This document shows positions 3,845 through 59,800 of a stretch of 64,000 bases of DNA, piece by piece (within the stretch, counting starts at the first letter, position 1; each line of letters starts with the position of its first letter). The notes below the pieces were generated by a model. It was not told the origin of the DNA. It did not search any database and was given only the letters and a program-made list of their open reading frames with translations. The stretch comes from Owenia fusiformis. Lineage: Eukaryota; Annelida; Polychaeta; Sabellida; Oweniidae. The stretch covers positions 7,523,555-7,587,554 of the forward strand of contig CAIIXF020000002.1 of the NCBI GenBank assembly GCA_903813345.2, given 5' to 3'. The position numbers were made by a program, and so were the translations under genes.

Positions 3845-4336
3845 TTTTCCTATTTCTTAGCAGGTATAAGTTTAGAGTCCGGTTGTTTTCCTATTTCTTA
3901 GCAGGTATAAGTTTAGAGTCCAGTTGTTTTCCTATTTCTTAGCAGGTATAAGTTAAGAGTCCGGTTGTTTTCCTATTTCTTAGCAGGTATAAGTAAAGAG
4001 TCCAGTTGTTTTCCTATTTCTTAGCAGGTATAAGTTAAGAGTCTGGTTGTTTTTCTATTTCTTAGCAGGTATAAGTTAAGAGTCTGGTTGTTTTCCTATT
4101 TCTTAGCAGGTATAAGTTTAGAGTCCAGTTGTTTTCCTATTTCTTAGCAGGTATAAGTTAAGAGTTCGGTTGTTTTCCTATTTCTTAGCAGGTATAAGTT
4201 TAGAGTCCAGTTGTTTTCCTATTTCTTAGCAGGTATAAGTTAAGAGTTCGGTTGTTTTCCTATTTCTTAGCAGGTATAAGTTAAGAGTCCGGTTGTTTTC
4301 CTATTTCTTAGCAGGTATAAGTTTAGAGTCTGGTTC
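3845..4336. repeat. 41-bp minisatellite (12 copies) that contains the KIDINS220 stop codon
   Basis: TTTTCCTATTTCTTAGCAGG recurs every 41 bp from 3845 to 4296. On the minus strand the twelfth copy is the end of the KIDINS220 reading frame (residues KLIPAKK, then TAG at 4303-4301). The other eleven copies therefore lie in the 3' UTR or flank and repeat the last codons and the stop. On the plus strand each unit looks like a 3' splice site followed by CAG and GTATAAG, which is probably coincidence because the gene runs the other way. Confidence 0.95.
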
Positions 4337-30643: not shown

Positions 30644-30712
30644 TAAAACAGCTAAATCATCTAAATCTCGAACATTAGATCAAGCATTTGGACAGAGTAG
30701 TGTCAATTCATC

Positions 30713-33700: not shown

Positions 33701-34657
33701 GACATTTTTCATATACTATCATATGATTATCTTCTAACTGTAGACTACTACTCTACATTCGTGGAAGTGAACCTTTTACAAGAATTGGATTCGAAAACAA
33801 CTATAAACGCTCTGAAGTCCCAGTTTGCTAGACATGGCATACCGAAGAAAGTGCGATCTGATAATGGGCCCCAATACTCTAGCCATGAATTCTCTGAGTT
33901 TGCAACCGAATATGGCTTTAAACACGATACATCATCTCCAACTTTCGCCCAGTCCAATGGCGCCGCAGAGAAGGCTGTCCAGACAACAAAAAACATTCTT
34001 AAAAAAGCACATGAAGATAAAAGAGATCCATACTTGGCTCTGTTGGAGTTACGAAATACGCCCATAGATGGAGTTAGTGCTTCCCCATCACAACTTCTTA
34101 TGTCCCGACGCACCAGGACCCGTCTCCCAATTAATCCAGAGCTTTTGACTCCCGAAGTGGTCAAAGATGTTCCACAAAAGCTAGAACAAAGAAAACTAAC
34201 ACAAAAACGATTTTACGATCAGAAGGCGGGAAAAGATCTGCCAGTCTTAAAGCCAAATGAAATGGTCAGATATAAGAGTGGAGAAGAGTGGAAACCAGCT
34301 ATGGTGGTAGCACATGATTCACATCCCCGTTCTTACCAAGTAAGAAACTCCTTGGGAAACACCTTGCGTCGAAATAGAAAGGACATTAGAAAGACCAAGG
34401 AGGAGTTTGATATCCCTATGAAAACTACCAGCAACCAGGATATCCCAATTCCAGATAAACTCGATCCCAACCTTGACTCAGGCTCTACCCACCCCATGCC
34501 CATGGCTGTAGGTCCTGATCAGACTCCCTTCAGTCCCTTGCCCAGTTCCCCAGTGCCTGATCAGACTCCATTGTCTCCAAGTGCCCAACCTGAAGCAACT
34601 CCACCTAGGAGAACACGGTATGGAAGGACTGTCGTTAAACCACTAAGATACCAGTGA
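30713..34657 (+). CDS. Retrotransposon Gag-Pol polyprotein (1,314 aa)
   Basis: One uninterrupted frame. Order: Gag capsid-like region (residues 1-200), two CCHC-type zinc knuckles (about 213-241), aspartic protease with LDTGAQ (about 300), reverse transcriptase with FxTLDAGQAFYQV and the MDDIL catalytic motif (about 572), RNase H starting SCDASSEGLGA (about 719), integrase with an HHCC zinc finger (about 932-972) and the catalytic acidic residues in GSDIF, RSDNGPQ and AAEKA (about 997, 1050, 1085). No chromodomain is seen; the C-terminus is proline-rich. All catalytic motifs I can check are intact, so it may be autonomous. Gag and Pol share one frame with no frameshift. Confidence 0.96.
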   Translation: MSELFSKPKPLRLSGNLAENYRQFKQSFDFYLTATEKNEKSSEVKLAIYMNCLGEECIPIYNSFSFTDAEDKTKFKDVEKKFSAYCEPRKNITMMRHYFLKRHQKEGETVDQYITDLRLKAKDCEFGDLEESLIRDQIISGILDEQLQSRLLDKSQQVEDFKLDLCVKMCQSAEFSKLHRTEFRKAAAVDATYQKSRSGMNSSKLASTSSSECPNCGQTHPDDKSKCPAFGKQCHYCKRSNHFIQKCRKREYNRQKVHTVEQEEDVEAFFINSISSTSCSSQGMFLHTSIHDCNVSFKLDTGAQCNTLPYTTYKNISSPPPISQVDRKLISYSGHQIPCRGETTLPISHNNHEYQVNFMIVDQYSEPILSLGSCLELGLISALYSITSQDPKIILDQHNDLFSGLGHIGECHITLDPNISPVIHPSRSVPYSQIELVRSELSRMESSGIITPISEPTDWVSSMLIVEKPGKIRLVLDPRDLNKAIKREQFPYPTIEQVSAKIEGATVFSTLDAGQAFYQVSLDEESSKLTTFNTPFGRYRFLRMPFGISCAPEVFQAKMSQMFDDIPGCAVIMDDILIYGRDMNEHNDRLTAVLERAKAMNLTLNREKCKIAQSSVTYIGHVLSAEGLRPDPRKIEAILKMPTPISKQDLRRFMGSVTYLSKFIPNLSTLNAPLRDLLKEDIPWQWDEVHEQCFQRLKTKLTEAPVLRFYDVNLPVTISCDASSEGLGATLWQEEHPIHYASRSLTSAEKSYAQIEKEMLAIEFSATRFHQYIYGKNVTVESDHKPLESLFRKPLATAPLRIQKMMLKLQKYDLNVKYVPGNKLFLADTLSRAFIHDPDPTQEIYEISSIDNLPISQERLSEMRQATANDVILQKLLHTTQKGWPNNRKCCDNDLKQYWNFREEITVDNGIILKGSRIVVPTTLRPKMLEALHESHLGIEKTRRRARDILFWPGMNEHIADTVERCAICQRHAKAQAKEPMICSEVPQSPYEIVGSDIFHILSYDYLLTVDYYSTFVEVNLLQELDSKTTINALKSQFARHGIPKKVRSDNGPQYSSHEFSEFATEYGFKHDTSSPTFAQSNGAAEKAVQTTKNILKKAHEDKRDPYLALLELRNTPIDGVSASPSQLLMSRRTRTRLPINPELLTPEVVKDVPQKLEQRKLTQKRFYDQKAGKDLPVLKPNEMVRYKSGEEWKPAMVVAHDSHPRSYQVRNSLGNTLRRNRKDIRKTKEEFDIPMKTTSNQDIPIPDKLDPNLDSGSTHPMPMAVGPDQTPFSPLPSSPVPDQTPLSPSAQPEATPPRRTRYGRTVVKPLRYQ

Positions 34658-35826: not shown

Positions 35827-38800
35827 ATGGATACTACAGAGGTGCCGAGGTATGGTTTTGCTCTGTTTGCACTCGTTTTTTCACATTATTCAATGATAAA
35901 CCAGGTCTCGTGATAATTTAAATTGAGACCCTATCTGTTGCAAGACTAACGCCTGGCGTAACCGTCACCATGTTATTCGGTGTTTTTAAGTAGCGCAAGG
36001 ATCCTGCCATGACCGTGGTAATGTTATCGTGAAAGCCTGGTATAACCGCGACAATGCTGTATTATATTAAAATGCCTGCCATGACCGTGGTAGAGTAATC
36101 GTGTAAGCCTGGCGCGACCGCAACCTTTATATGACATTAATGACCTTCATGTTTTGCCCAATGCTGTTGGCATTTTTATGAATAAATCTTAATTGATCAT
36201 TATAGAAAGTATATGCTTTCGAATCGAAGCTCCTTGAATGAGAGTAGAGATATAGTTTGTTCGCAAATTATTTATGAGTAAAAATTAGGTTTTCGTTGTG
36301 AAATTAATACACATTTTTAGAGGTCTTTATTTACATATTTAAGGTAGTTAAACACGAAGAAAAATTGTCATTACAGTGTTCTCATGCTACTTTAAATACA
36401 ACCACGGTCATGAGAGGCCTTGCAACAATTGTCACGGTCATACGGGGCTTCAACATTACCACGGTCATGACAGGCCTTGCAATATGATATATAGCATTTT
36501 CACGGTCATGACAGGCCTTGCAAGCATTGTCACGGTCATATCAGGCTTTAACATTACCACAGTCATGACAGGCCTTATAAGCATTGTCATGGTCATATTA
36601 GGCTTTAACATTACCACGGTCATGACAGGCCTTGCAATAATTTATGATAGGACTGCCATAACCGTGACAATGTGTATTGCAAAACCTGGCATGACCGTGA
36701 CAAGGTAATATAGTATTGCAAGGCCTGCCATGACCGTGACAATGTAATATAGTATTGCAAGGCCACAGATGTGGGTGGTCATGTAGAAATTTAGGCTTAG
36801 TCCGTGATAATGTATTGCAATGACTAGTACTAGGGGGTAACTGGTCAACTCGTACCCAAGACAACTCGTACCCAAGTCAAGTCGTACCCAAGACAACTCG
36901 TACCCAAGACAACTCGTACCCAAGACAACTTATACCCAAGTACATGTTTTGTTTTGAATCAAGTGTTGGGCTGGGAATGGGTATAGATATACATATTATA
37001 ACGGTTACATACAGTTCAGAATAGTTGAAGTATGTAGAAGAGTTTTTGGAAGAAATTGATTGAAATTTGTGACCAAATATATTGGTCACAGATTCAGATG
37101 TTCGAGGAAAAAGATTTATGTTTATTCCACTTATTCATAATCATTGTTCACAATATTAGTGGTATTTTTGTATGTTAATGAGTGTTTGGAACAAGTATCA
37201 GATCTAATTCATCTTGAAATCTGGTATTATCAAAAATGTAAAGATTTTCAAAACTTGCGCCTATTTCTTATTAAACAGATAATCTATTTAGGATTTCATA
37301 TTATCAGATTAAAGAATGATAATTCTAAGAAGTCACCTTCATAAAATTAAGCAATAAAAAATATTCTAAATAATATGAATATCAAATATTATTTTGATAC
37401 TTATTCATACATGATATAATGCACTTTGCATGCATGTGTTCAAATATAATCCAATTAAGTTCAAAATGGAAAAGAAATTAACAGATTAAAGTTCCCTTAT
37501 TAATTTTCTCTGAATGCACTAAGCTAAATAAATTGTTTGATTCATTTGTTGAAAAGTTACTGTTTTAATTATATTCATTTATATATATGTATTTCAAAAA
37601 AAGTTGAGAACAAGCCCTTCAAAGCACTTCAAAGGTAATCCAAGTTAAAATGCTTTGCTTAATCCATTAAGAAAAAATGTCTTCTAAATTCAGAAAAAAT
37701 ATTGAGGCACATTATAACATTAAACATTTTGACACAGACTCAATTTGTTTTCTTATATGCACCCGTAATACAGAAAATAAACGTTGGTACGAGTTATCTT
37801 GGGTACGAGTTGTCTTGGGTACAAGTTGTCTTGGGTACGAGTTGTCTTGGGTACGAGTTGACTAACAATTTAGACCGGAGACATAAAATATACAAATATT
37901 TAAAAGTGGATAGCAAACAAATCGCTTAACAAACAACAATAAAAAATTCTTAAATTAAACGTAAATGCTACGGCCGCGCCAGGCTTCCACGATAACACTC
38001 ACGGTCATGACAGGCCTTGCAATATAATACAGCGTTGTCACGGTTATACCAGGCTTACAAATTAACACTGCCACGGTCATGGCAGGATCCTTGCGCTACT
38101 TAAAAAACACCGAATAACATGGTGACGGTTACACCAGGCGTTAGTCTTGCAATAGATAGCATGTGTTTAAATTTGTTTCAATTTTTTATTTCATTATTTT
38201 ATATGAAGGAGGATTGGCTCCTAGGGTCCCAACTCGATATTCTGCCATATATAGAGTCATGTCGTGATCACAAAGTTTGAAATCCAACAGGCACCATTTC
38301 TTCATTCCAGAATTTGAATCGCAAATTTTGGTCGTCTTTTCATGATCAGCAATCCAGGAGATTCAAATTTGAGTACATAGGGGCAATATCGGCCACAGGG
38401 GATTCCTGTACAAATCAGATGAAACTCTTTGGCATTGGCATGTAAGAGTATTATATAATAAATTCTTACCACAGTATTCAGTGCTTTATTTTCTCGTCCT
38501 AGTAAGTCCAAATATAGTGGAATTTGTGTCCATAATGACAAATAAAAACTTAAAAAGTTGAAGTGGATATTCACATGTTAATTTTAATGTTAATGTTGAA
38601 GTGATTTTGTAGCCCGATTACGCCATAACGGAGGATTGGCTCCCAGAATGCAACATGACCCGTGCCAGCTTTTAAAATGTTGTTCCCCATTTTGAAACCT
38701 ATCACGAGTAAATAAGGTTAACTGATGTTGCATTCTGGGAGTCAATCCTCCTTGGATCACAAACATTGTGATTCATAAAAACATTTGTTCGATTTGGTAG

Positions 38801-41800
38801 GGATTTATCCATCATTTGCAGTTATGAAGCTTTGGATTCATTTATTGTGCTACTTAAAGTGAACGGGAATTATTTTTTTACCGCTTGGGTTGGGAGATTT
38901 TGAGACACGAAACTTGGAATTTAGCTCATTGTGACAACTTTTGATGGTTGAGGTTTCTTTTTGTCCCCCACTTTAAGACTCTTTGCAATGCATATCTCAG
39001 TATTATAATGTGTCTAATTTCAAGTTTCGATAAAGAAATCAAACAAAACAATGGATTATTAGATCGTCCAACAATGCGCCGTGTTCTGGAAAGCCCCTAT
39101 GTACCCTGATATCTTGATCACTTTTGTATGTTTTGAATTTTTTAGGGAATCAGACCTAAAATGCATTATTCAAATTCTGAAGTGAAAAAATATGTTCATT
39201 GTTTATATTTAGTTTTTCAAAGAAATCTAGAAATATCCCGTCATGGTTTTGTCTTTATATAATTCATTTGCCATCATCACTATATATTTTCAAATATGTT
39301 ACCTTGAAATATCAAAATGTTATGATATCTTATTAACCTCTTGAATCCCAGGCTCTAAAATCGATTGAAACCAGTGAATTTTTCATTTTTGCCAGTTTTT
39401 GAAATTTGGTGCTCATTTTAGTAAAATTAGATGGCAAAGATCATTTCTACACATTTTAAAATAATCTTTGTGTAAATTGGATGAAGATTTTTCAAATAAG
39501 AGCAGTTTTAGTGAAAAATTTTGTGATGGATAAAAGTTTCCTGAAGATTTGCCTTGTCATACATTTCAAGAATATTATTTAGTTGATCTGTCTACAAAAG
39601 GTAATGAATGTAATTTTTCGAAATGATACCGCACTTTGGTATTTTTGATTGCTTATATTTCATGTTTTATAAAAACACAACCCAATTGAAATGGACTATA
39701 TTAGTCTGTCCTTGGCTCCAAGCATCAACATTTGACCTACTTGCCCTTACCTTTGGGGGACTTTTGTATCACCAAATGGTGCTTGATATACTGTTTGCTT
39801 GTACAGTACTTGTTTTCAGTGAAGAACAAGATTCCAATGAAAAATCACCAGATGTTGATGAAAGTCCAATGGAAGTAGACAATATTGAGGGCCAAGATAT
39901 AAAAGATTCAATCACTGATAAGCCCCAGGCAGAGACAGAGAATGACTCGTCCAACGAGCCAGCCATATTTGAGGACAAGAAAGATGCTATCGTTGACAAG
40001 ACAAATGAAACAAGAAAAGATGCAAATGAGAATGCTTCAGTTAAGACTAACAAAGAGTTAGATAGGCCAGTGAAAAATGATAAACTGGATATATTTCAAA
40101 TTGACGAGTGTGTTGAATCTGATGAAAAATCAGTTCATAAGGAGACGGATAATGCTGATGATACCAACAATGCAAGTGAAAACGATGCTGAACCAATAGA
40201 CATCCTGTCTGTGATTGATGAAGTGGAACAAGAGCAAAAATCTAACTTGTCTGAAGAAGACACTTCCAGCCAAAGAGTAAAACACCCCACAGAAGATGAA
40301 AGTATCTCAGCCAAAATTTCAAAACCAGGTAAATGCTATTTAGATGTTTGAGAGAAATTTTAGATTTTTGCCACAAAAAAATCACCCTCAATGTCTTGTT
40401 GGACAGCTAAGTAAAATTGTACAAAATATGATTAAAATTCAAAGCTTTTCATATAAGATGTGATTGGCTTTTCTAACGAGACCAACAAATTCCATACGTA
40501 TTGAGGTAATTCAAGGTAGATAACATCCAATTATAAAGAATAACCAGTGTGCATTGAACACCTTTGGCGGCACAAAAACATATTAACTGTAGGTGGATGT
40601 TCACTGCAGAGAGGAAATTTTATGCAGGAGTCAATGAGGTATGTGCTGAGAACGGGTGTTTACAAGACACATTTGTTCACTAGAGACCGAGGGGTGTTTA
40701 CAAAAACAGGTTTTACTGTATAGTATAAACTTGTATCTAGGGGGCCAGATGGATACAGTGTATATTTTCTGTGGGATGAATCATGTATCTAAAACCTCCA
40801 AGAATATAACTCATTCAATAATTCTTTATAGATGACCCCAATATCCAGGGTCACATAACAGACTCTGATGAAGAAGAAACCAAAAATCCAAAACAAGTGA
40901 TCCCACCAAAGAAAGAGGAACCTCCTGTAAAGCTTATCGAGAAGGCGATAAATGACTTCCTAGCCAGCCAGATCCACATAGAGGAGGATGATCAATACTC
41001 TTGTGGGAGTAGCTTCTTTGGATCTGATATTGATGATGATATTGTGAATGATGAGAAAAAGTAAGTAAATTTTTTACCCTTTGCATTCGTTTGACTTGGC
41101 TTCTAGAAGATTCGTCTTCACTCTTTCAGTTGACAATAAATCTCTGAACTCACAGACCCATTCAGAGTTTGTCTTTGGAATATGAACACCTTTCTATTTA
41201 TGGTCATTTCCTCTGACGTTATCGCATAGTTAATAAGTATGCATTAAGCATGTGGTCCTTTCAGCTCACTGATTGGTTGAGAAAAATCAGCGTGATCGTT
41301 TTTTTAAATAATCTAGGTCCTGGGCTGTCACGACCATAGTTCGTGGGGGCGGGACTGCTTAACTGTAATATAGTCTATACTAGGTAGAGGATAGTTTATA
41401 ACTAGACTCTGTAGCAGGGTAGAATTTTTTACAAAGCTTCCCCTTACATTGTTGTCTGTTGATATGGAGAAGTTTTGCCTTTGTTCTTTGGACCAGTTCT
41501 TCCCATTATCAATAATGATACATGTACTGTACCTTTAATTATGAAATGGAATCTGTTTAAGTGGAGCCTCGTGTTTATTCATTGAACATTTCTTGTGTAT
41601 TAGTACTTCCCTTTACCCATAATCATACCTTTAATCATAAAATGGAACCTCGTTTGCAATGATCCCATTTTTACATTGTGACCAAGAAAATGTGATATAT
41701 TGTTATAGCCACATTGACATTCACCTTCTGATGCTTTAGATACAGTTTTGTAATTGCAACCAGGTTGTGGCATTTTGTCATCTGTATTTGATGCCTTCAT

Positions 41801-44800
41801 TACAGTTTCTTACACTGTCATTTAAACAAGTTACTATTTTGACAGAGTGGAGTCTTATGATGATACATTGAACTGTCTGTATTACTAGTTCATATAGTTG
41901 ATTCATCAAACTATGATTATTTTTTGTGATTTAAGGATAGATGGCACTAAGGTTCCTGAGGAAGAGCCCCTGCCTCCAGGTACAGAAAACGATGATAAAC
42001 AAAAAGAAGAGTAAGTTACATACATATACAAGTCTCTGCAGTCATTAACTTAAAGATTCTGTTTATTTCATCTAATATCAGTTTATGACATTATACATTA
42101 GCTAGAATTGGTTATGAGAGAAAAAATACAATATGCAGTCATTGAATGTATTCTCCTCCATATATTACCTAAGATACCTACTCCCAATATATCGTTAAAT
42201 TGAATTGATAAATATACCAGTGGTGTAGCCAACAAATATCAAGGGAGTGCAATTTTTTAGGTTTGCATCATTGCAAGCGAAGCGAGCCAAAAAACGGGGT
42301 ATGTTGGCTCACCTCTTGTAATTTTAATATTATATTGTAGAGGGTGCAGCATTTCAAACTATGATTTGTTAATGTTTTCTCAACAAATTCTACAAAATAA
42401 CTTTGTCTCTCCTTTGTGGGGGTTGTGGGGAGCTACACCCATGTATACATGTAATAAGATTCAATTAGTAAAGTTACTTGCAACCAGTCAGAGAGATTTC
42501 TCTCTTGAGAATATAGCAACAGTATTTACATTTTTATCCTTCTTTTTATGTCATAATCACATGTGGTGAAATGTTGTTGTCTCTAACCTTTTTGTGGATG
42601 GTGTTCGGCACTTTGCTGTTTGTGTTTTGCATTTGTTGGTTTGCGTCTTTAAACTTGAAGCAAGTTGAAGAAAAATGACTGTGAATTTCGAAACATTAGA
42701 AAAATAACTATCAAAGTAGTGATGAGAAATTATCCCAAAATAAGAACACAGTTGTGTTTTATGTTTCAGAGAGGATAAGACCATTGAGGATCTTGGGATT
42801 GTGATACCTCCTGTGGAGCCTGTGGTGAATAGTCCTAAGTCGAGGTATTACTTTAGATTTTTATATCATACTTTGTTCTGATTTATGATTGGTGAAAAAA
42901 AGGTCATGACATATCTGATTAACATAATTTATTGTGTATGGCAAAATGGAAATAGATCAAAGATCACACTGTCATGTTTCAGAAAATGATTTTTCATTCC
43001 ATTCAGAGATCCAAAGACCTTAAACGCATTAAAATAAAATTTCAACAAACTTAAAATTGGATGCTAAAACATAGTTGTAGTACCACAAAAATACTTTTTT
43101 TCTTTTCACAACCTTTATTTTACTAAACAGGAAGTTTCGGATCCTGTCTGGATCCTTTTTCAACTGTAGAAAAACTGAACTGAAGCGCTTCCGAAACGTC
43201 CTGTTTAGTAAAATAAAGGTTGTGAAAAGAAGAAAAAAATATTTTTGTGATTTGATAATCCAACCTGAAGAACATGTTTAAGAATAGTTGTAGTATATTT
43301 GCCAGCTGAACCAACAAATGAGTCCTTATATCTGTTGATTCACATGGTCTCACCAACTGGGTGCCATTGTAGAAGAAGCCCCATACGCATAGCATAAACT
43401 GGGAACAAATTGTACCAAAAAATGCATAATCCATAAAAAGTATAATCCAAAATGGTAGACACAATTTCAATTTCTTTAATATCATTCAATTCCAACTAAA
43501 CCGAGTAAAATCTAGATTCCAATTATTTATGTGTTCTGATTGTAAGCATAAATAATACCCCATTGATGAAACTCAATGGAGTTTTGTGATGTAATTTTCA
43601 TATACAGTCATATCATTCCTTGTTCAAGTTTGAATCAGCACTGTCAAAATAAATGTAATATTATGGCTTCATATGCCTCTGCCATTTATTTCATGATCGG
43701 CAACCCTTCATAAAAGGAAAATTACCAACTACTTTTGGGAATATTAATATCTTTGTAGCATTAACATTTTTTAATAATTATCTGTTCTATACAGAAGATA
43801 AAAATTACCATCACCCTTGGGGGACAAAATATGCTTTTCTCAGCTGATAGGTGTGTTATGTACAACAACATGTGCAATTGTTGTTCACAATTGATGTTGT
43901 AATGTTGCCAGTTGTTGTATCACTTGGAGGGGTCTCTTTGAACTGCGGGATTACAACACTGTAGGTGACCACTGTTCCAAGTAACTGAAATGAAATAATA
44001 AACAACTATTTACCTTTGCTTTTGACTTCATGTATGACAACCCTGATGAATTTAATATATATTAAAAATATTAAAATTAATAAGATATTCATTGGCTAAA
44101 CACTCTAGGCCAGATGAACTATAAAAGGGTATTTTGGTATTTTGCTTTTTATAACTTATGATTTTGTGGGCCATATATTATTGTTGTTAAATCGATACAT
44201 TTTTGACTGGAATCTGAACAAACAAAATGTTACAAGAACCTTTACTAGAAAATTAACTCTTAATAAATTATCTTATGTTTTTAGGCTGCCCTACCTAGCC
44301 CCCAGTGACAGTGAATTGATGTTAGTTATTAGCTTTGAGATCTTCATGATTGTGCATTTAAAACTTTGTGCCTGTTCAAATATTTTCTGGTGTTACACAT
44401 TCATCCTATTCATAAGATAGACCAATCCTGACCAAACTATATGGTCAGTCGTAATTTAAAGAGAATACAATCAAAACGAAATAGTTTTGAAGGACTCGAC
44501 AACAAGATTTCTAGATATTTATAAAGGATTGTAATCAATTTTCATTTCACTCTGTTTTCAGTAGATTTGTGTATTGAAGACTGTTTGATGTGACTGGGGA
44601 GTTATTTTTTGCTTATCTCCATAGTTTCCCACAAATTGCTTACTGTAAGAATTGTAGGCTTGTCCAGTGCAAAAAGTGAACAACATGTGATTCCTATAGG
44701 ACTCCCTGTCAGTCTTTGCGTGAAGATTTGTACTAATTGGACAAAGTCCTGTTTGATTCCACCCAGTCTCATCTTGTACACATCAGCCACACAACAATGG

Positions 44801-47800
44801 GCCTGAAATAGTGGTAGATGATTTTTATATATCGTAGAACCTTTCTAATCGAAACATTTCTCTGCCAAAATAGCTCAGATTGGTTTTAGTTTACATTTCA
44901 AAGTTATTTTAAAGCTGGACTGCGCTCCGAAACGCAATCTTGGGTTGGTTTCGGGGGTGAACTTTATCATTTTGAGCCTAATGAAAGATTATAGAATGAT
45001 GAACAAATGGGGCAAATCTTGTGTAGAAATACTTATGATAAATGTGTCATTTCAAAGATTATTCATTGAATTGCTTCGATCGGCGCCGACGATATGATTT
45101 TGGAAAAGTTTCTAAATGAAGAACGTGACGTCACTTCCGAATCATAGCATTCAAAATAAGTAGCGTTAAATTACTTCCAACATTCATTAGAAGACGGTGG
45201 TCTAGGGGTACAATTCTCGTTTAGCACGCGGGAGGCCCGGTTTTATTTTTTTTTACTAAATGATTGTTCTTTGATATAACGCAGAAAAAACAATTTTTAT
45301 TTACATAAACTTTATATTAGAGCTTAAAAATGTAAAACAATATATGTCAACATATTGCGTTTTTGAGCGATGTCCAGCTTTAACCAAGCTGAAAATATTT
45401 TTTGTAATTCAGTTTATTTATATTTGAAGCCTTTCTATAGATGAATTATGCACTTCTCAAATGTTTCCTAAGCAATGTATTGTGAGGAAATGCCCATTAT
45501 GACAAATTTAGTTGCAAAGAAAACAATGAAAAATTGAAAATTTGCAGAGTATAATAATTCTCTATCTCACTTACATGATGGTTAAGGAGTGCCCCGTAGG
45601 TAATTATGTAGCATATCTGTGCTAAGTGGAATACTGCCATAAATATAATGGTTAAATATGTCACTGTATCCGGAGACCCAGTAAATATAATATAGATTGT
45701 CAAGCAAATTGCAGGGATTGATATTGCAAAGGTCAAGGTCACATATGGCGCAAAAATATCATCAACACTATCGGTTAGTTCACAAAGTTGTTGATGGCGG
45801 TATCGAAATTGTTCAAATCGCTCATCAGGAATTCCAGATACCTTTTTAACATACAGTTTAAAATCCTTGTTAAATTGTGAGAATTCATCCCTCATTATGG
45901 TTACACATCCACCATACAGGAAGTTCAACAGAAACCATGTGAATAATGATATGCTTTGGAGGATGATGATAATTGTATAAAGAATTCTTAAAGTCACAAT
46001 ATCCGTGATGTATTTGTCAAAAGGTTTGATGAATAAATTTCCTACTTCATCAAAGATGCCAGTTGCAATAGCATATGAATCAACAATAATAACACTAATT
46101 ACTCCGAGGATAGCCAGCACTTTACATATCTTCTCCGTTTTTGCAGCTATCTTGTACACCTGTGCGTCTTTTGTGTAAAATTTTCCACAAAAATCATACC
46201 AAAGTACTAGGAAATCTTTAAGCTTAGGGACCTTCCAGCTACTCCCAGTAATCATAAACGCTATCATTATAAGCCAGCTATGGTATAGCAGCTTTATAAA
46301 TAGGTCATTTCCAAATTTTTCAATTTCATATGAAGAAAATTGCCGTATTGTATTAAACCAAACACTAATGTTGGTACATACTGCCATAACTTTTGGCCAG
46401 TAAATGCGCCGTTGTTTCTCCGATTGTTCCCGATCGTCATGGTAATACATCCCTAAGATTTTCATCCCAAAGAATAGATGTGATAAATATTTGTAAATCC
46501 TTAGTTCCTTCCATTGAATCTTTGGAAATGGTTCATCCTTCTTCTCATCCTTGTCTTCCATGAATGCAATATTTCGTGCAGTTTCCCTCTTGACTTCTTC
46601 TACGGTTATTCTCATCTTGTTATGCTGTGTAAATAAAATTGTTTGGCATATATGTATGAAGGTACAGGGTGGGCAGAAAATATGCACTTTTATATTTGAC
46701 CTCAAGTCAAAATAAATTTCAAAATAAAACTTCAGTTGTAATGGTTTTTCTATACACAGTGTGCTTTGCATGTCAGATATTTCTAAGATTAATTTCCGGA
46801 AATTTGAAAAGGTTCAAACTTTTAGACCTATATCAGTTGTAGTAGATTATCTTACCTGTAACCTGAAAAAATTAAATATGAATCATAAATGTATACTTCT
46901 TTTGACCTACTCTGTACTTTAAGTTAGTTGAGTGAGGTTAATATGAAGCCAAGGGATGCCAATCAATCACAATAATGTTTCCATTATTTTACCATTTTTT
47001 CCATTTATTTTTAAGTAATGGTTAGTTGTTATGAATTCAGCATTATGCTTGGTGTCGACCTAAGTGGCATTGCTTTTATGTGCTGCAATTTTTCTTACAT
47101 ATCCATTAATGTTTTATCCGTCAATCTTAACATCCATTTAATTAATGAAAAAAGCACCGTTAGTGCACTTTTGTGTTTTCTGTTTCCAATGAGGTTATAA
47201 CTATTTGTCTAAGATGATGAATGCCTACCATAACATTCTGGCTCAGATCATTTGTCTTTTCATTCATAACTTTCCTTTGCAATTTTATTGTACTTTCCTT
47301 TGTATTTTTTATATACCAGAAATTGTATAATTAATCTGATACTTTATTTGTCTTTGGCAATTTTGTATTTTTGGACATATTGGCGTCTATTTAATTTGGC
47401 AGTTTTTCAAGTGTCCCCAACATCCTCCTGTATAACAAAATTCAAAATAGTCATTGTCAGTGTTGTTGTTGAACAATTTCTTTAATATTCCTTGTTGTTT
47501 ATATAATTTTCTTCAATATTCCTTGTTGTTTCGATCAATATTTAACTGGCCTGGCCATGTTGGAATCTTTGTTATAACTGGAAATATACCGAACGAAAAT
47601 CATGTCGAATTTCTGGGAATTTTGGGAACCGTCGTAGTATTTAATTTAGCGATTTTTTCATGTGACTGATTCCTTTCAGTTTATTTTTCTGTATCTTCAA
47701 CCGATTTCTTTGTACGTTATTGTTGACTAACTTTTCGTTCTGAAGCTAACGTGTTATCCAAATTATCAGAAACCAATATAACACTTTTACTTCGTAATTT

Positions 47801-50800
47801 TCCATTAAGCAATAATTGTTTTGCTTTTAGTTTTAATTGCAATTATCTCAGCATATTGAATGTATTGTATTGTTTTCCTCTCTTAAACATCGCTATTGAC
47901 GTATCAAGTCCAATGCTGTAATTTCTAAGTGTGATATTCACTCATACATCATGGAATATTAAGTAGAAATAAATCAGTTTCCCATTTTGAATTTACCTTC
48001 TTAAGTGTCAATATTTGCTTCTAATTGCGACGTAATGGTTGTTAATTTAAAGCTGGCTCGTTATAATCACAGGCTTTCAACTCTAATTGAAAGCCCATGT
48101 TATAATTAAAGGTACAACAATTACTGCAGGGGGGGGGGGGGCATTCAACAATCATTGACCAGTGTCAAAATATATTTAATTTTGGATATTTCATCAAAAC
48201 TAACATATATTTTTATTATCTACAAAGAAACCCCCAGGATGAACATTATTTCAGCTGATATTCCTCTTGAAACTTGGCGGATCTTAAAAATCTATAAGTG
48301 GGACTTCCTTTATAGAAGCTTTGAACTGAATTTACACTTCTTAATGCTAAATTGATAGTTTATACATACATTTTAAGAGAATAGGCATAAGAAGGTGTTA
48401 AGCCAAATATTGACCTGAGAGCTCAGAAAAAATAAAAAAAATTGGAATTTTCTCTCTACAATCCTTGTTGCCCCTTTAATGTATGATAATTTACAATATA
48501 CGTAATAGCTATAATTGTGTTACATCATTTTTCACTTGCTGCTTTGAAAAGTTATGAAATATATCCCATCATTTAGTTGTTTACACACTTAATCCACTTA
48601 ATATTAGCTGTTATCTTTCTCATCTAGTGGGAGCACAAATTAAATGGCAAAAATACTGTAATTTTTTTTTAATTTGATGCCTTAATTTAACGATTCACCA
48701 ATTTTGTACAAGATATCTCATTCAAATGCATGCTGTCCATAATAATCTTACATGTTTCAAAATTATGTCAAATTGGAAATTAAATCAAATTTGAAAAATC
48801 TAAAATTAACAAAGGACGATTCTCGGTTTGGAGAACAGTCTCCTGGGCTAATAATTTTTTTATGAAAAATATAGAAATATTACCCAAATTAAATTATGAA
48901 TTTTCAAAAAAGGACATTTAAATCTACAAGATGTAAAAATAACAAATTGGTCTGAAGCAGGGATAACGCTCAATTAAACCGATTCAATAAAATACAAGTC
49001 TCGATTTGGGGAAAAAAGTTCTTCAGTGTACTACGCTAATATTTTTTTGTGAAAAATCTAGAAATATTACCCAAATTAAATTATGACTATTCAAAAGAAG
49101 ACATTCAAATCTATATTATGTAAAAAAATGAAATTTGTCCGAAGCAGGGATAATTCTCATTTAGATTGATTAACTTCGTTCTCCAAACCGAGAATCATCC
49201 TTTAGAAAATTACATAACAGCTATAAAAAAACATTTTCAGTTCTATAAATAAAGGTACTATACCTTCATATTATTTCAAAGCACAATTTCAACATTAACT
49301 CAACATGTTGCATCATGATTATTAGTCATTGGTAAAGAAGGGCACGCTGGAATATCAAACAAACTCATAGCATAATATGTTTAAATTAAATTAAATTTCA
49401 TTTAATTTTAAATGGTAAATAGTCCCATATATAACATTGGAATTCATGTTTAACCATTAAATGTTAGAATGTTCCATTAAACCTTATCTGTTAAAACAAC
49501 TTACTTTGCAAGATAGTTCTTTATTGAAACCAATATTTCTTCCATTACTGACAGCTTTTTCCATTAAGAAATGAATATTTTATGACAAAGGTGTGTTAAC
49601 CAAACAATACAAGTTATACACTTTCTAAAGATCTCACTTGTAAATTGAAGGCTTACGCAATTTATATGACGACAGGATCCATCATCTATTCATTAAGGTT
49701 TTATCTGATTCAATAACATGAGACTTCCCTAAAGGAAAATAAAAAGTACCATAAAACCTGTGTAGGTATGATGTCTTTGGTTCTGCAAAAAGGCATTTTG
49801 CCTTGCTATGGTCCAAGTTAGACTTTGGACACACAGTGCAGGCGTGTGAAAAATTACAAAGTCAAACATAGATTTTAAAGTGTGCACTTAATTTGTGTAA
49901 TCATATCAATCTAATTATATTATTTATGACTCATTTGAAGCTTAAAGGTGTGTGTAAAGTTTGACAATACGTTTTTATCATTCATTTACTATTTTTCATG
50001 ATTTCAAAATTTTTTTGAGATTATTGAAAAATTGATTGTTTCCTTTTCAAAGGTCTCAAAGCACTTCACCCAGGTTTTGCAAGTTTAACGGTGAAAATGC
50101 CTCAGAAAACCAGTATAACGTTTCGTCCCATAAATTTTTGTAGAACAATTCATTGAGTTTCAAACAATTCCTAAAAGTTTTTAGTGAAATGTTGACAGTA
50201 TAATACAAAGATCAGTGTATAATACATAATTATAGCTCTTTTTTTCAATGCAAAAACAAAACAAAAAGATATTAGACATTTTAAGCATAAAATAATGGCA
50301 TGCACATCCTTCAGAATTCAATACAATTTCATTGATCTGTCATCATTTGTTCACACTATCTGATCTCATCCACCAATCACACGTTATGTGACTCGATTTC
50401 AGATAATTGCATGGTTTAAGAAGCACGCGTGGATCCAAAATCTAACAAGTCAATTTTGCCTAAAAGTGATGCTCAAAAAGGCCCACTAATTGAGGCCCTA
50501 CTAAAAAGTTTTTCTGGGCCCATCCAAGGCAGGGGGATGTGCCCCACGCCCCCTACCCCCTAAGTAGTTCCAACTTAGTTTCTTCCGAATAAATCATTCT
50601 GCATTCTCAGAATTAGAGAAATTCATTAGATCTAACCTGACACAATCAGAATCAGAAAATGTTTTTCACCAATGACATGTGCGTTATGTACAATAACATG
50701 TGCAATTGTTGTTCACTATTGATGTTGTAATGTTGCCAGTTGTTGTATCACTTGGAGGGGTCTCTTTGAACTGCAGGAACACTGACAGGCGTGTTATGTA

Positions 50801-53800
50801 CAATAGCATGTGCAATTGTTGTTCACTATTGATGTTGTAATGTTGCCACTTGTTGTATCACTTGGAGGGGTCTCTTTGAACTGCAGGATTACAACACTGT
50901 AGGTGACCACTGTGCCAAGTAACTGAAATGAATAATATAAAAACTGTTTATCTTGGCTTATGAAATTACAACCATGTAAGTTCTGAATTTAACATATTGG
51001 ATAATGAAATTCATGATGGCAGATACACATATACAACCCCCCCCCCCCCTTCTACAATACTATAAATGCTTACTGTAAGAATTGTGGGCTTGTCCAGTGC
51101 AAAAAGTGAACAACATGTGATTCCTATAGGACTCCCTGTCAGTCTTTGCGTGAAGATTTGTACTAATTGGACCAAGTCCTGTTTGATTCCACCCAGTCTC
51201 ATCTTGTACACATCATCCACACAATAGTGGGCCTGAAATAGTTAAAAATGACTATTATGTATAGTAAACCTGTCTAATCTGTGTATTTGTGACGTCTGAA
51301 ACGATCATTCAGATTAGGGGTTCCTTCGTTGTAGTTATAGACTTAGAGGCCTAATAATTAACAATAAAGTATAATAAATACATGTAATGGATTCGATCGT
51401 ATGTTTCAGATTAATTGATATTCTTAGCGTAACACATTTTGTTAAATTTTCAGAATAAAATCTACCTATTTTACTCACATAATGATTTAGGAGTGCCCCA
51501 TGGGTCGTTATGTAGCATATCTGAGCTAAGTTGAATATCGCCATAATTACAATGGATACAAATGTAACTCCATCAGGATATCCAGTAAACAATATGTATA
51601 TTGTCAAGCAAATTGTTGGTATACATATTGCAAAGGTCAAGGCCACATATGGCGCAAAAATATCATCCAAAATATTGATTAGTTCACAGAGTTGTTGATG
51701 GCGGTATCGCAACTGTTCAAACTGCTCATCGGGAATTCCAGATGCCTTTTCCACATATTCCTTAAAAGCCTTGTTGAATTTTGAGAATTCATGCCTCATA
51801 ATGGATACACATCCGCCATACAGGAAGTTCAGTAGAAACCATATAAACGAGGATGCACTTTGGAGGATCATGATAATTACATATAGAATCTTTAAAATCA
51901 CAACATCTGTGATATATTTGTCAAAAGGTTTGATGAAGTAATTTAATAATTTATCATACATGTCTGTTGCTATAGTGAAAACAACACTAACAACAAAAGT
52001 CACCAATCCTATAGTGGCTAACACTCTGCACACATTTCTCATTTTTGCAGCCATTTTGTAAACTGTTGCATCTTTAGTGTAGAATTTCCCACAAAAATTG
52101 TACCACAAAACTAGGAAACTTTTAAGCTTAGGGGCCTTCCAGCTACTCCCGGTAATCATGAGCGCTATCATGATAATCCAACCGTGGTACAGCAGCTTAA
52201 TGAATAGGTCGTTTCCAAATTTTTCAATTTTGTATGAAGAAAATTGCCTTATGGCATTAAACCATACTACAATATTGGCGCATATTGCCACAATCTTTGG
52301 CCAGTAAATGCACCGCCTTTTCTCCGATGGTTCCCGATCGTCATGGTAATACATCCCTAAGATTTTCAATCCAAAGAATAGGTGCGACAAATGTTTGTAA
52401 ATTCTTAGTTCCTTCCATTTGGACTTTGGAAATGGTTTATCTCTTTGTTCATCTTTGTCTGCCGTGACAAATTCAATATTAGGCGTACCTCCCCTTTTGA
52501 CTTCTTCTACAGTTATTTTCATTTTGGTTTCTGTGTGATTAATAGTGTTTGATGTTTATATATGGAGATACAGGTCGGGACTGCAAAGTATTGTTTATTT
52601 TGATATCTAATCTCGAGAAATCAAAATAAAATTGAGCTGGGTGTTCATTTTTATCTACCCAGTATATATTTATTTATTATTTATTTCTTATTTATTAGAT
52701 AGTTTTTTAATTTGAAAGTATTTGGCCAAAATCTTTAGAGCAATATAAATAGTTGATCATCTTTCATGGAACTAACTTTAATGATTAAAGAAATGTTATA
52801 TATAAAATGTATCATTTGTGACACACCCTTTATATCTTGTTAATTGTGTGATATTAATAATGAAAGTAAGAAACCCCAATCAATCAAAATACTGTTTTGA
52901 TATATCCTCTGCGATCAAATTGACGATTTATTAGTTTATCATGATGAAATATTCACCCTTCATGGTATATTTCTAGAAAAGAAACATTTTCTTTACCATC
53001 TATAGCACCAGTTTTTATTCCAGACTCCAGAGTCAAATAATTCCAATGTTTTATCTCCCATTTTTCACTCAATGTTAACAATGGATTGGAATTTTTCTTT
53101 ACTCACTGTCAGTGTCTAATCCATTAGCCATTGCCTTAACACCAATTAAAGAGCACTTCTTATGCACTACTTTGTTCTCCGAATCAATTGATATGACTTC
53201 TTATTGTGTCCTTTTAGCGATGATAAATGTCTGATGACAATCAATGTTTGGAAGTAGAACTGTTGTAAATTAGTGTAGTTGGTTATTAGACTCCAAGTTT
53301 AACTGAATTTATAGTGTTGAGACACGGTAATTTTAATCTTGGAAATAAATGTAAAATGTATGGATCATTATTGTGGGGGTTGTGTTTCAATGTGGTTTGC
53401 GCAACTTAAAAGTCACGATGCAAGAAAATGCAAAATGTATGTTTTAAGAAATAGAATAGGTTAAATTGGAATATCAACAAAATAGATACATCTTTTGCCT
53501 TTTGTGTCAAGTCTTTTTACCCCAGTTAAAAAGTCTCACTCTAGAACATCCAAACTGGATCACTTCTCAGTTTGTGGGATTCCCATGTAGGACAATTTAT
53601 AGCATCTAGGAAAATTTGTATTTTCTCCGTTCCAAGGCAGTTTACAATCATATCCACTGAAAGTTGAGATTGGTATGTTATAAACATATTCCCAAAATTG
53701 TGCAAAATTAGACAAAAACTGATCATCATCAGTTAAACTCAGACCCTGAGGCTACATGTACCTACACTAATTTATATTGGGTCCACTTCCACCCAGTGAC

Positions 53801-56800
53801 TATACTCTGGTTATTATATATCCATATTTTCAGATAACGGATTTTATAGCTTACATGAAATATTTCATTGCTCTCATCTGCTAACATCTCATTTCATTTT
53901 TTAGTATGATTTCCTGTATTTCTGTAATATACAAAAAATCCTTCAATTTGAATAAAGTGTTTTTTTGCGTTCGTCTCATTTCTAAGTATATTGATCTGTT
54001 TTTTCAGACTTAGTTGATTCAGTTGTAATTATGATTCATTTTCTAGACTAGAGCATAATTCAGAATATCGGGAACCAATATGACTGAGTAATTTAAACAT
54101 TTTTTTTTCACCTAAAAGTCATAGGTGAGGCCAGACATAAGGTGAGGTGAGGGCAGGTCAATGAACCCTTATGAATGTGTTATTTAGTTCAAATTTACCT
54201 CGCCAAATGAAATTTACCTCCTCAAATTTTAGACCCTGGTAACGCCCCTGTAAGAAGTCAGTTTTAGGTATTTGATGTGAAGTCGGGAAAATCCATTTAC
54301 TAGTAGCTTCCTTTCAAGCTTGAGTTAAAATTGATACTGTTATTACTTCCATTATAGCTCTAGCCATTAAAGAAATGAATATTTTATGATGTCCATTCAT
54401 CATAGTCAAGTTATATATCCGCTATAATGACACTTTAACATGAAGGCTTCCTCCTATCTCAATTAATAAATAGGCTATCATCTAGTCTTTACGATTTGTC
54501 TCAAAATCTTTAAAAGGCCCTGTGCAATCTTTTAACGTTTTGTTTATTTGCCTTTATAAAGATTCTACTGAAAAGTGCAAATTAAATTGGTTTCAAAACG
54601 AAATATTTTAACAAGTATGTTTCAAACATTTAGATCAAATGAAAAACTATTTAATTGTTTCAAGTGTACAAATGCATTGTGATTCAATCAGTTTTCGACA
54701 AATTTTGTGAAACCATTGCAAAAACAATGCCGCCATTACCGTTTGAAAAATACAATTGGAATCAAAGTTTTCCATAATGATAAACTTGCTGTAAACTTAC
54801 TTAATTTCTGCTTTTTACATTGTTTACAGCCTTTATTCAGTATTGGTGAATGAGGTGACCTATAGATAAAAAATTATTTTGAAAGTCATCAACTTTCTGT
54901 GTGATTTTAAAAAAAAATAGGACACATTTATTGGATATATGAAACACCTTGTTTAGAAATAATCAGTGCGGATAGAGCTTTACATGGGGTCTTTAATGTG
55001 CAGATCTCAAGTTTAGTAAAAAGGTTTAAATGAGGTCTTTAATGTGCAGATCTCTAGTTTAGTGAAAGGGTTCCAAGTGTTCATTAGAGTCTAGATCTAG
55101 AGTCTAGGAACCAAATACCAACATTATTGCAGATTCAAAAAATATGGAATTTTGCAAGTGAATTTGTGCACTGGACTTATATAGGCAAACTTTGTATTAA
55201 AAAACTTGCAAGCTTTTTACATGTATTTTCTGTTTTAATGTGTACATTCCTGTATTTTCTCATATTTACATGTGTTTTGTGTTTTTGTGTATTTTCAGAA
55301 GTGCAATTGGAAAGGTGGATGATGATGTTTTAGGTTTACAACAGTGAGTTTCCATATTATGTCCTGATCATAGAAAAGAGCATAGTTGTCATTTTTTAAA
55401 TGTAAAATAGAGTGGAACAAATGGAATGAGCAAGGAATAGATTCAACAGACATGAAATGAATTCTCCAAATTGTTAAGAAATGCCAAAAAGTCAAACATT
55501 TCATTTAAACTTTACATTGAAACATAATGAAAGAGTGGAATTAGCAAGGACTAAAAAGTAAACAGACATTAAAGAAATGTAAATAATTAAAATTAAGCTG
55601 TTTTGAGATTTATTCATACAAATAAGTTCAATGAATTACATGAGATTGACAGTGAGAAGAGAACAGTTGTCAAATTTGATGCAAGGAAAAACATACTACT
55701 GTACTTCTACTTAATTTAGTGCTACTTATTTTGGCGGATTTGGTGTTTTGAATATTTGACAACTATTTAATTTGGTGGACTTGCAATATTGAAATGTATA
55801 CAGTATATATACATTATACCATACACATTTTCGATTAAAAGCATGAAATATGGAATTTGGCGGCTACTTAATTTGGCAAACTTTAACAATTAAAAAAGTC
55901 ACCAAATTAAGTAGAAGTATAGTAATTCAAGGATAATATTTTGAAACAATTCTCCCTGTGTAATCTGAATTTATACTTAAAACGTTAATTTATTTGAGTC
56001 AATTTATACTTAAAATGTTAATTTATTTGAGTCAATTTACCATTTCATTCTTAATTGTAATAATGGGATTCCAAATATTATCACCTCCAGTTGTAGTGAA
56101 CGTAAAATCAAATCTCTTCTTGAAGTAAATAATCTTAATATTTTTCAGGGCTGCCTTGGATGAAATTGAAAAAGAGGCTAGAGTTGCTGCAGAACGGGCC
56201 GAACAACTTGGAGCTGCCGCCTTTGACAAAGCACCAAAAATAAATAAAATATTTGCCAACAATCTATTGGCAAGCACTTTACGTCGACCATTGACGAAGG
56301 AAGAAATAAGACATGGCACACGTCGTCGTGACGACAAGGGCTTTCATAAGCCAAATATTGTTGATCGGAAAACTCTGTCTGACTTCTCGGTGTCAGCTGC
56401 GAGGAAACGATACGTCGTTGAGCTTCAGATGGATAAAACTATCGCTGAGTATTCAGATTTGATAGACAAAGAATCTTCAAAATTAGCTGGAATTAAAGAC
56501 TCTAAAGACTCCAAAGATGGTGAAAGAAAAGAGGATAATTACAATGACAGAGATGATAATTATGGTGGTTATTATAGGGGGTCTTATCGTGGGAGAGGTT
56601 ATGACTCGTATGAAAGGCGGCCTTATAGAGGACGTGGTAGGGGACGGTATAACAACCAGTGGCGCCCTCCATTTAGAGGACGCTTCCCTGTTTTTCATAG
56701 AGGACGTTCTAAGGATGATTTCCGTGCTATGTTACGTGAAAAATGGCTGAATTCAAGAACGCAGCATTCAGATGATAGATATTATCACACTAAAGAACGT

Positions 56801-59800
56801 AACAAAATTCGGAAAGAAAAACGATCGAAAAAGAAGCATAAAAAACATAAGAAATCTAAACAGAAATATGACGATGATAATGTGTCATTAGAATCTGGTG
56901 AGATTGAAGGCTCACTAGACTCAGACTTAGATAGCTTACAATCGTTACTTACAGCCTCTAGTGATCTCTCTGATGGCCCAAAGTTTTCCAAAAAGAAGAA
57001 GAAAAAATCCAAGAAAAAGCGAAAACGTAAGCGAAAGCTAAGTATTGATTCAAGTGACATTACAATTAGTGATGTTGCGATCTCAGAAATTGACAGTGAA
57101 GTACTTTTTGACAGTGATGTAGAAAAACTCCTTGAATCAGATGACGATCAAAACTTGTCTGATTTTGAGGAAAAAATTAAATCCAAAATAAGGGAAAAGA
57201 AAATCAAGGCAAAGAAAAGGGAAAGAAAAAAAGAAAGAAGAGCCGTAAGGGAAAAGAAAAGGGAGCGTGAATTTAGAAGTTTTTCAAGTGGCAGTCTGAA
57301 CAGCATACATAGTGTATCATCAGTTGACAGTTATGGATCACACCACTACAAACGTTCACGATCACCGTCATTTGATCGTTCTAGACCTTTGGAGAGATAT
57401 GAAACCTGGTCGCCTCGACATGGGTCAAGGTCACCTCATCATGGGTCAAGATCACCGAGGGATGTTTCACCTGGAAGAGATAGTGATGATCCATTTAATA
57501 CAGAGTGGGAAGAAATAGCATACTGGTATGACTACATACAAAATTTCTTCAGCAGACCCCGAGGTCGAGGGCGGTATATCAATAATCGAAGCAGGGGGCG
57601 ATATATGAACAGTACATATAGGGGACGCCCTTGGAGGGGACGAGGAAGGGGACACGACTCTCCAAGGTGGCAGCATGATCGTTTTGATGACAGGCAGTCA
57701 AGATCACATAGTCGTCATGGGTCAAGAAGCTCTTCAAGATCAAGAGATCGTAAGTCAAGGTCTAGAAGTCATCACCGGTCAAGATCAAGAGACAGAAGGT
57801 CAAGGTCAAGAAGTCATGATAGGTCAAGATCAAGAGACAGAAGGTCAAGATCAAGAAGTTACCATAGGTCAAGATCAAGAGACAGAAGGTCAAGATCAAG
57901 AAGTCATGATAGGTCAAGATCAAGAGAAAAAAGGTCTAGATCAAGAAGTTACTATAGATCAAGAGGCAGAAGATCAAGGTCAAGAAGTCACCATAGGTCA
58001 AGATCAAGAGACAGAAGGTCAAGCTCAAGAAGTCGTAAAAGGTCAAGGTCAAGAGATAGAAGGTCAACATCAAAAGATCATCAGAGGTCAAGGTCGGGAG
58101 ACAGGAGGTCAAGCTCAAGAGACCACAAGTCAAGGCCAGAAAGTCATAGATCTGTGTCTAAAAGTAGAGACCCAGAAACGAAAGAAAATGATCCTGTTTC
58201 AAACTCACCTTTTTCAGATGACAGAAAATCACCAAATAATGATGAGAGTGTTGCAAAAAAATCAAGATCAAAAAGTCCAAAATCCAAATCAAAGAAAAAG
58301 AAGAAAAAATCTAGGTTTGAGAACAAAGGTGATAATGAAGAAGAGAATAAACACTCAAGAGGTAATACAATGGAAAAAGATAATGACATTCATAAAGAAA
58401 GATCAAAGGATCCCGAAGATCAAGAGATGGGATCAGATGAGAGGAGGTATTCAAGAATGAAACCAGAGAGACACCACTCAAAGGAAAACTCTCAGAGAGA
58501 GGAAAAGAAGGAAGATAAAAAGGAAAGAAAAGAAGGTAAACAAAGGGATCACCATAGCAGCAGGGAGAGGGACCGAGGAATGGACACAAACATGTCCTTT
58601 AATGCACTGCACTTAGCAGACGACCACAAATCCAGAGATAGGGGTGATAAATATAAAGATAGAAGAGATGATCAAAGATATAATCGAGAAATTGATCAAA
58701 ATGATAGAGCTCAACGGATGCACATGCCAAGGGGGAGATTTGATACAAGTGGTGGATTTCCAGTACATAGTGGTAGAACTGGGGAATTGTATAGAGCTAC
58801 ATATAGTGAAGACCTCAGTCAGTTGAATGAAAGAAGAGATGAATTTGCATATAGAGGAAGAGGGGGTTACAGAGAATATGTGGAAAAAGGGAACTACAGA
58901 GGACGGAATTTTGACAAAAACTTTCGAGCCAGGGGTAGATCACGTGGCTATCAACACCGTGACTTTGACCAGAGACCTCCAGGTGAAAACTATGATAGGT
59001 TTAATGATCTTCACCATCCAAGATTACATGCTCCTTTCAATGATAATGACCATCGAAGATTTGATGAAGACAAACATAGAGATTTTCACCATTCACGATT
59101 CAGGGATGAGTACGACACAAGAAGACGAGAAAGATTTCATGACGACTTTCAAGATGACGACTCCACTGGGAGTTTGGAAAGAGCTGTCCTCAAGGGTCAT
59201 AGAGAAATGATGGGTGCTGATTACATAACTGATGATAGTGCTGAAATTGATCTGGATAACGTAGAGAAAAAACGGTCAAAAAAGAAACATAAAACTAAAC
59301 ATAAAAAATCACATTCTAGAGATGCTGATCATGATACAAAAAATGACGTAGAACAAACCTCTAATAAATCAAAGAAAACCAAACATAAAAAATCTCACTC
59401 CAAAAAGGAAGAATCCGAAGAAACTGAAACACCAGGAAGTATGAGAAAACAGAAGAAAACAAAAAATCATTCTCGAAATAAAAGCAACGATATTGACATT
59501 GACGCTATAAATGAATCAATAGAAAATGCTCTTAGTCATAAAAAGTCCAAAAAGAAGCGGAAAAAATCAGAGGAATCAGTTAAGAATAACCTTGATGATG
59601 TCATGAATATGACAATAGTGATTGACAATCCAGACTATAAATCGGACAACGATAAACAAACAAGGCGCAAGAATAAAGAGAAACAAAGAAGAACAGAAAC
59701 TGAAAATTCAGAAAGTGATTATATTCAAAAACAAATGGACATCATAGACTCTGAGTTAAGTGCAATTTTAGAACCTTCCTCCAAAAAGAAACATAAATCA

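Follow-up and report, generated by a model that had tools for sequence, protein, structure and literature searches.

Members of the insect chemoreceptor (7TMIC) superfamily are not confined to insects. Gustatory-receptor-like proteins (GRLs) have been published from Annelida, Nematoda, Mollusca, Echinodermata, Hemichordata, Cnidaria and Placozoa, a list that does not include Chordata (PMC7746228). A second source reports gustatory receptors (GRs) in protostomes, cnidarians and placozoans and their loss in chordates (PMC11526382), and sequence searches described in a third returned no family members from chordates (PMC9998090). The last intron is reported to lie six codons before the motif in TM7 in nearly every Daphnia Gr and in the majority of insect Grs; some Daphnia Grs stop at that motif, from which the authors infer that the C terminus matters little (PMC2680840). 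In BmGr9, the motif residues T, Y, Q and F are described as contributing to the shape of the pore, to contacts with lipid and to gating (PMC11100771). We set aside a starfish "GRL" (PMC6267866), which is GRL101, a GPCR unrelated to the GR-like family.

Here we describe two neighbouring genes, A and B, within a stretch of 64,000 nucleotides that was analysed as a whole (the window). The preliminary description of this DNA took them to extend the family beyond insects. With GRLs already on record from the seven non-insect phyla above (PMC7746228), that claim does not hold: A and B are a new pair in a known family whose range outside insects was already documented, and they leave its reported range no wider; only a chordate source would change that, and nothing in the data suggests one. 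A literature search, made without the species name, found no paper naming the pair. Searches with two short peptide patterns each gave 134 matches in IMG/VR and 53 in prokaryote genome contigs, none of them confirmed as a relative.

Gene structure and genomic setting

Both genes lie on the minus strand. Gene A runs from a start codon at 46615 to a stop at 43856 and encodes 442 residues, and gene B runs from 52522 to 50794 and encodes 443; the proteins have the same residue at 341 of 442 positions in their alignment. The two gustatory-receptor-like genes previously placed at 43856-52522 are therefore recovered, the limits of that interval being the stop of A and the start of B. Each gene has three exons with GT-AG borders, and the lengths of exons 1 and 2 are divisible by three, so that both introns are in phase 0; an intronless reading was rejected in favor of this structure. 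In gene A, exon 1 (45575-46615) is an open frame of 347 codons from the ATG to the TM6 region, ending in phase 0 at a GTAAGT donor. Exon 2 (44644-44802, 159 nt) covers the region before TM7 between an AG acceptor and a GTAAGC donor, and exon 3 (43856-43984), also opened by an AG acceptor, encodes TM7, the tail and a TAA stop. In gene B, the corresponding exons are an open frame of 348 codons with its ATG and a phase-0 GTGAGT donor (51479-52522), a second exon with GT-AG borders (51074-51232) and a third, likewise bordered, with TM7, tail and stop (50794-50922). Frames, start codons, stop codons and splice sites are intact in both.

An A[AT]TAAA signal lies 81 nt past the stop of A, and none was found within 800 nt past the stop of B. 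A tblastn search of the window with A and B detected no third member: besides the genes themselves it picked up an additional copy of the tail-coding piece (see below), all other matches having E values of 0.44 or worse. The window also returned no Rfam family at the gathering score and no tRNA (ARAGORN).

The pair sits antisense within a single intron of 12,454 nt (42845-55298, plus strand) that has GT-AG borders and whose flanking exons, 42770-42844 and 55299-55343 (45 nt), join in frame. These two belong to a plus-strand series (40832-41060, 41936-42010, 42770-42844, 55299-55343 and 56149 onward) that forms one open frame with GT-AG borders, and an earlier exon ending at 40328 on the same strand joins that frame; host exons were found by eye, and a script was used to check them. 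The last coding exon found (56149-60340, plus strand) carries a long ORF rich in Arg/Ser and Lys that has no Pfam match at E 0.1, and three pieces of the host gene searched against Pfam gave none at that threshold. The antisense nesting claimed earlier thus stands, since the host frame continues across the intron; judged by composition alone, the accompanying label of "nuclear protein" is plausible. Nested genes are described as ordinary in animals (PMC3786989, PMC8467205), and we draw no functional link between the nesting and A or B.

Assignment to the GR/GRL branch

Judged by sequence, A and B are members of the insect chemoreceptor superfamily, in its GR/GRL branch. In Pfam-A, 7tm_7 (cut-off 26.6 bits) is matched over nearly its whole length by A (E 1.4e-20, 74.4 bits, profile positions 5-368 of 370) and by B (E 2e-22, 80.5 bits, positions 6-368 of 370). 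Trehalose_recp (PF06151; cut-off 21 bits) is also matched above its cut-off, by A at 8.4e-17 (61.3 bits) and B at 3.6e-14 (52.7 bits), with 7tm_7 scoring higher. The odorant receptor family 7tm_6 reached 22.9 bits with A, below its cut-off of 25.8 bits, and was not listed for B. DUF267, a Caenorhabditis family with a cut-off of 25 bits, remained below it at 21.8 (A) and 17.8 bits (B). Exon 1 of A alone (1.6e-10), exon 1 of B alone (2.4e-10) and exons 2 and 3 of A alone each matched 7tm_7 above cut-off, which makes the family signal independent of the TM7 motif. Two shuffles of A gave no chemoreceptor match, their sole hits being to three unrelated families (E 0.06 to 0.26); both this control and the scan of exons 2 and 3 against 7tm_7 were run for A. 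A PDB sequence search with E values up to 10 returned nine distinct sequences, eight of them named as gustatory receptors, odorant receptors or Orco and the ninth unrelated, led by Gr64a (6e-5) and then Orco (0.008), with BmGr9 at 2.8.

The TM7 motif reads TYSVVIPQF in A (43940-43966) and TYSVVILQF in B (50878-50904), and both proteins retain its T, Y, Q and F. A scan of all six frames of the window for TY.{5}QF gives three occurrences, compared with an average of 0.4 over 40 mononucleotide shuffles; the third is TYYNGYIQF at 36991-37017 on the plus strand. On these counts, the motif by itself is weak evidence, and it is the full-length profile match that decides. In both genes, exon 3 opens with LLGTVV followed directly by TY, so the last phase-0 intron stands six codons ahead of the motif.

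These results bear on several claims of the preliminary description. Superfamily membership is confirmed by the full-length 7tm_7 match and the intron position, and with the 7tm_6 and 7tm_7 profiles that it had proposed for searching, 7tm_7 is the best family and no other seven-helix family is preferred. The agreement of the phase-0 C-terminal introns with the family is likewise supported, the last intron being placed as reported for Daphnia Grs (PMC2680840). The TYhhhhhQF signature is present in both genes as claimed, but loosely rather than strictly, with Ser at motif position 3 in both and Pro at position 7 in A. This Pro, directly before the gate Gln, is atypical and lies in the gate helix.

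Predicted topology and fold

With a 19-residue hydropathy window, B shows seven segments above 1.2 and A shows six plus a weak TM1, whose best 19-residue mean is 0.76 in A vs. 1.44 in B. Basic residues are concentrated on the N-terminal side of the helices rather than the other side (37 vs. 5 in A, 36 vs. 7 in B), counted on helix segments drawn by hand on A and transferred to B, with no dedicated topology program. From this bias, the N terminus is predicted to be cytoplasmic and the C terminus extracellular, and the predicted topology of both proteins is inside-out, as in insect receptors.

Two AlphaFold runs, with an alignment consisting of the two window proteins only, gave models of low confidence (mean pLDDT 44.0 and 44.4, pTM 0.35), and Foldseek returned no match at E<=0.001 for either of these models (pLDDT 44). 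Among the best 50 rows for the low-confidence A model, ABC transporters led, BmGr9 came at rank 22 and Gr43a occupied ranks 25, 38 and 41. For the low-confidence B model, Gr64a came first (E 0.073, probability 0.93) and again fourth, with unrelated helical proteins around it, a ranking that at most agrees weakly with a Gr-like fold. That the low-confidence fold matches are mostly unrelated helical proteins, and that DUF267 matches appear below cut-off, could be read as signs that A and B come from a different seven-helix family, either a GPCR or an orphan membrane family, with a GR likeness that is compositional. We consider this extremely improbable: 7tm_7 is matched at full length by both proteins, the two parts of A match it separately whereas two shuffles of A do not, and the last intron is positioned as in Daphnia Grs.

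Constraint and history of the pair

Selection was assessed with a custom-written pairwise codon model; an omega of this kind does not reveal on which branch constraint was lost, or at what time. Across the whole gene, omega was 0.35 (likelihood ratio test vs. 1, p 9e-11), and for exon 1 it was 0.32 (p 3e-11); exon 1 is under purifying selection. In exons 2 and 3 alone, where changes are few, omega was 0.42, and constraint was not significant (p 0.18).

Nucleotide identity between A and B is uneven along the gene. Exon 1 is identical at 847 of 1035 aligned bases, exon 2 at 154/159 and exon 3 at 123/129. The introns match at 40 of 50 positions just before exon 2, 37 of 45 before exon 3 and 30 of 42 at the start of intron 1; intron 2 is barely alignable at its beginning. 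At fourfold sites, 27/79 differ in exon 1 vs. 2/43 in exons 2 and 3 combined (Fisher p 1e-4). The stretches before exons 2 and 3 (77/95 identical) are less alike than exons 2 and 3 themselves (277/288, p 1e-5) and less alike than the fourfold sites of those exons (41/43, p 0.035), yet more alike than the fourfold sites of exon 1 (52/79, p 0.025). This uneven identity across exons and introns fits partial gene conversion of the terminal part, which perhaps took place; constraint on the terminal exons is a possible alternative. On our reading, the pair arose by duplication, and its last two exons stayed, or became, alike.

Both genes end in the N/T/C-rich tail noted previously. It follows QF, is 27 residues long and contains two N-X-T sequons in A as in B, along with four cysteines in A and three in B. 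If the tail is extracellular, its sequons could be glycosylated. Past the stop of B, the part of the last exon that encodes the tail occurs a second time (50670-50778, minus strand), out of frame and in the presumed 3' UTR. This additional copy is identical to 50780-50888 at 103 of 109 positions, and its 110-bp offset from B's own marks a tandem duplication. In BLAST comparisons over short stretches, the likeness of A to this copy runs ~30 nt past the A stop, compared with 12 nt for B's own exon. Because the likeness reaches further there, the additional copy may represent the 3' end that was present before the tandem duplication. Its use as an alternative last exon was rejected, as it lacks the start of TM7, is offset by 110 nt and lies past the B stop.

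This broken copy, together with the lack of a polyA signal near B, the Pro in the gate helix of A and the weak TM1 of A, could indicate that one or both genes are decaying pseudogenes. Against this, both genes retain undamaged frames, start and stop codons and splice sites, and omega, though pairwise, is well below 1, and we regard decay as improbable.

Proposed function

Our preferred reading is that A and B are very probably a tandem pair of functional GRL members of the 7TMIC superfamily and, by analogy with the family's channels, most likely subunits of ligand-gated cation channels. Each gene would encode a seven-helix subunit with a cytoplasmic N terminus, as the topology predicts, and four subunits would assemble into a cation channel with a pore lined by TM7. 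The T and Y of the motif would shape the inner pore and the Q and F would form its gate, which would open when a small ligand binds among the remaining helices, between their outer halves. We infer the tetramer, ion conduction, ligand gating and expression of A and B from solved relatives.

The same proteins could instead, or also, be GRLs that act outside chemosensation, for example in embryonic patterning or internal sensing, possibly without ligand gating of the insect style. This overlaps with our preferred reading, and we give it somewhat less than an even chance. GRLs of Nematostella and sea urchin are reported to be expressed in early development, one of them with a possible patterning role, and functional information outside Insecta is described as very sparse (PMC7746228). 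The preliminary description had likewise stated that little is known of function outside insects and that some members are developmental. Against a non-chemosensory role, both genes retain the pore and gate residues, and chemosensory channels are the members of the family that have been studied best.

It is also conceivable, if quite unlikely, that A and B form a channel variant with an altered outer gate, in which an A/B heteromer gates or assembles unlike insect GRs. The Pro beside the gate Gln in A would suit such a variant, as would a shared, cysteine-bearing and possibly glycosylated tail placed extracellularly at the pore mouth. Still, the Daphnia Grs that end at the motif have been used to argue that the C terminus is unlikely to matter (PMC2680840), and the likeness of the A and B tails may reflect recent homogenization rather than constraint.

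Comparison with known systems

Under the functional GRL reading, the locus offers an intact tandem pair with its gene structure, constraint and genomic setting, in a family about whose roles outside insects hardly anything is known. Compared with insect Orco and the odorant receptors (7tm_6), A and B are alike in the C-terminal region, with an Orco PDB match at 0.008, and differ in that 7tm_6 is below cut-off for A and unlisted for B. Of the PDB sequences, the Drosophila sugar receptor Gr64a (8jme, 8ze0) matches best (profile positions 193-418, E 6e-5), and both A and B pass the Trehalose_recp cut-off; by contrast, 7tm_7 scores higher in the pair, and nothing points to a sugar ligand. With the fructose-gated channel BmGr9, the sequence similarity is weak (E 2.8), and all three proteins carry the pore-motif residues T, Y, Q and F, whereas the gate-ring Ile at motif position 5 is replaced by Val in A and B and position 7 is Pro in A (PMC11100771). 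Daphnia Grs have the last intron in the same place, but some are reported to end right after the motif, where A and B continue for 27 residues (PMC2680840). A possible difference from the GRLs of non-insect animals is the pair's 27-residue tail, with its two sequons and three to four cysteines. As described in PMC7746228, those GRLs resemble the pair in having seven TM segments, a predicted cytoplasmic N terminus, the TM7 motif and, near the 3' end, a conserved intron.

An uninterrupted 1318-aa open reading frame (ORF) on the plus strand (30701-34657) carries domains of a reverse transcriptase, an RNase H, and an integrase, along with a protease match that fell under the Pfam cut-off. We read this ORF as a Ty3/gypsy-type retroelement, and because its reading frame is intact, recent activity is suggested. 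A minus-strand ORF at 20932-21312, which matched GIY-YIG below threshold in the Pfam search (18.7 bits vs. a cut-off of 22.6; E = 0.0023), is perhaps a retroelement remnant.

A KIDINS220/ARMS gene also occupies the minus strand, with a SAM_KIDINS220 domain (Pfam, E = 7e-28) in 4301-5881 and more exons up to ~29759. By eye, exons farther upstream look ankyrin-like and P-loop-like.

Past the end of gene A, a minus-strand gustatory-receptor-like gene, lies a near-palindromic inverted repeat (43084-43249) with 82% self-complementarity across 169 columns. ARAGORN found no tRNA in the window, including at ~45190-45250, a plus-strand, tRNA-like stretch inside intron 1 of gene A. This stretch, which we take to resemble part of a proline tRNA, is perhaps a SINE head.
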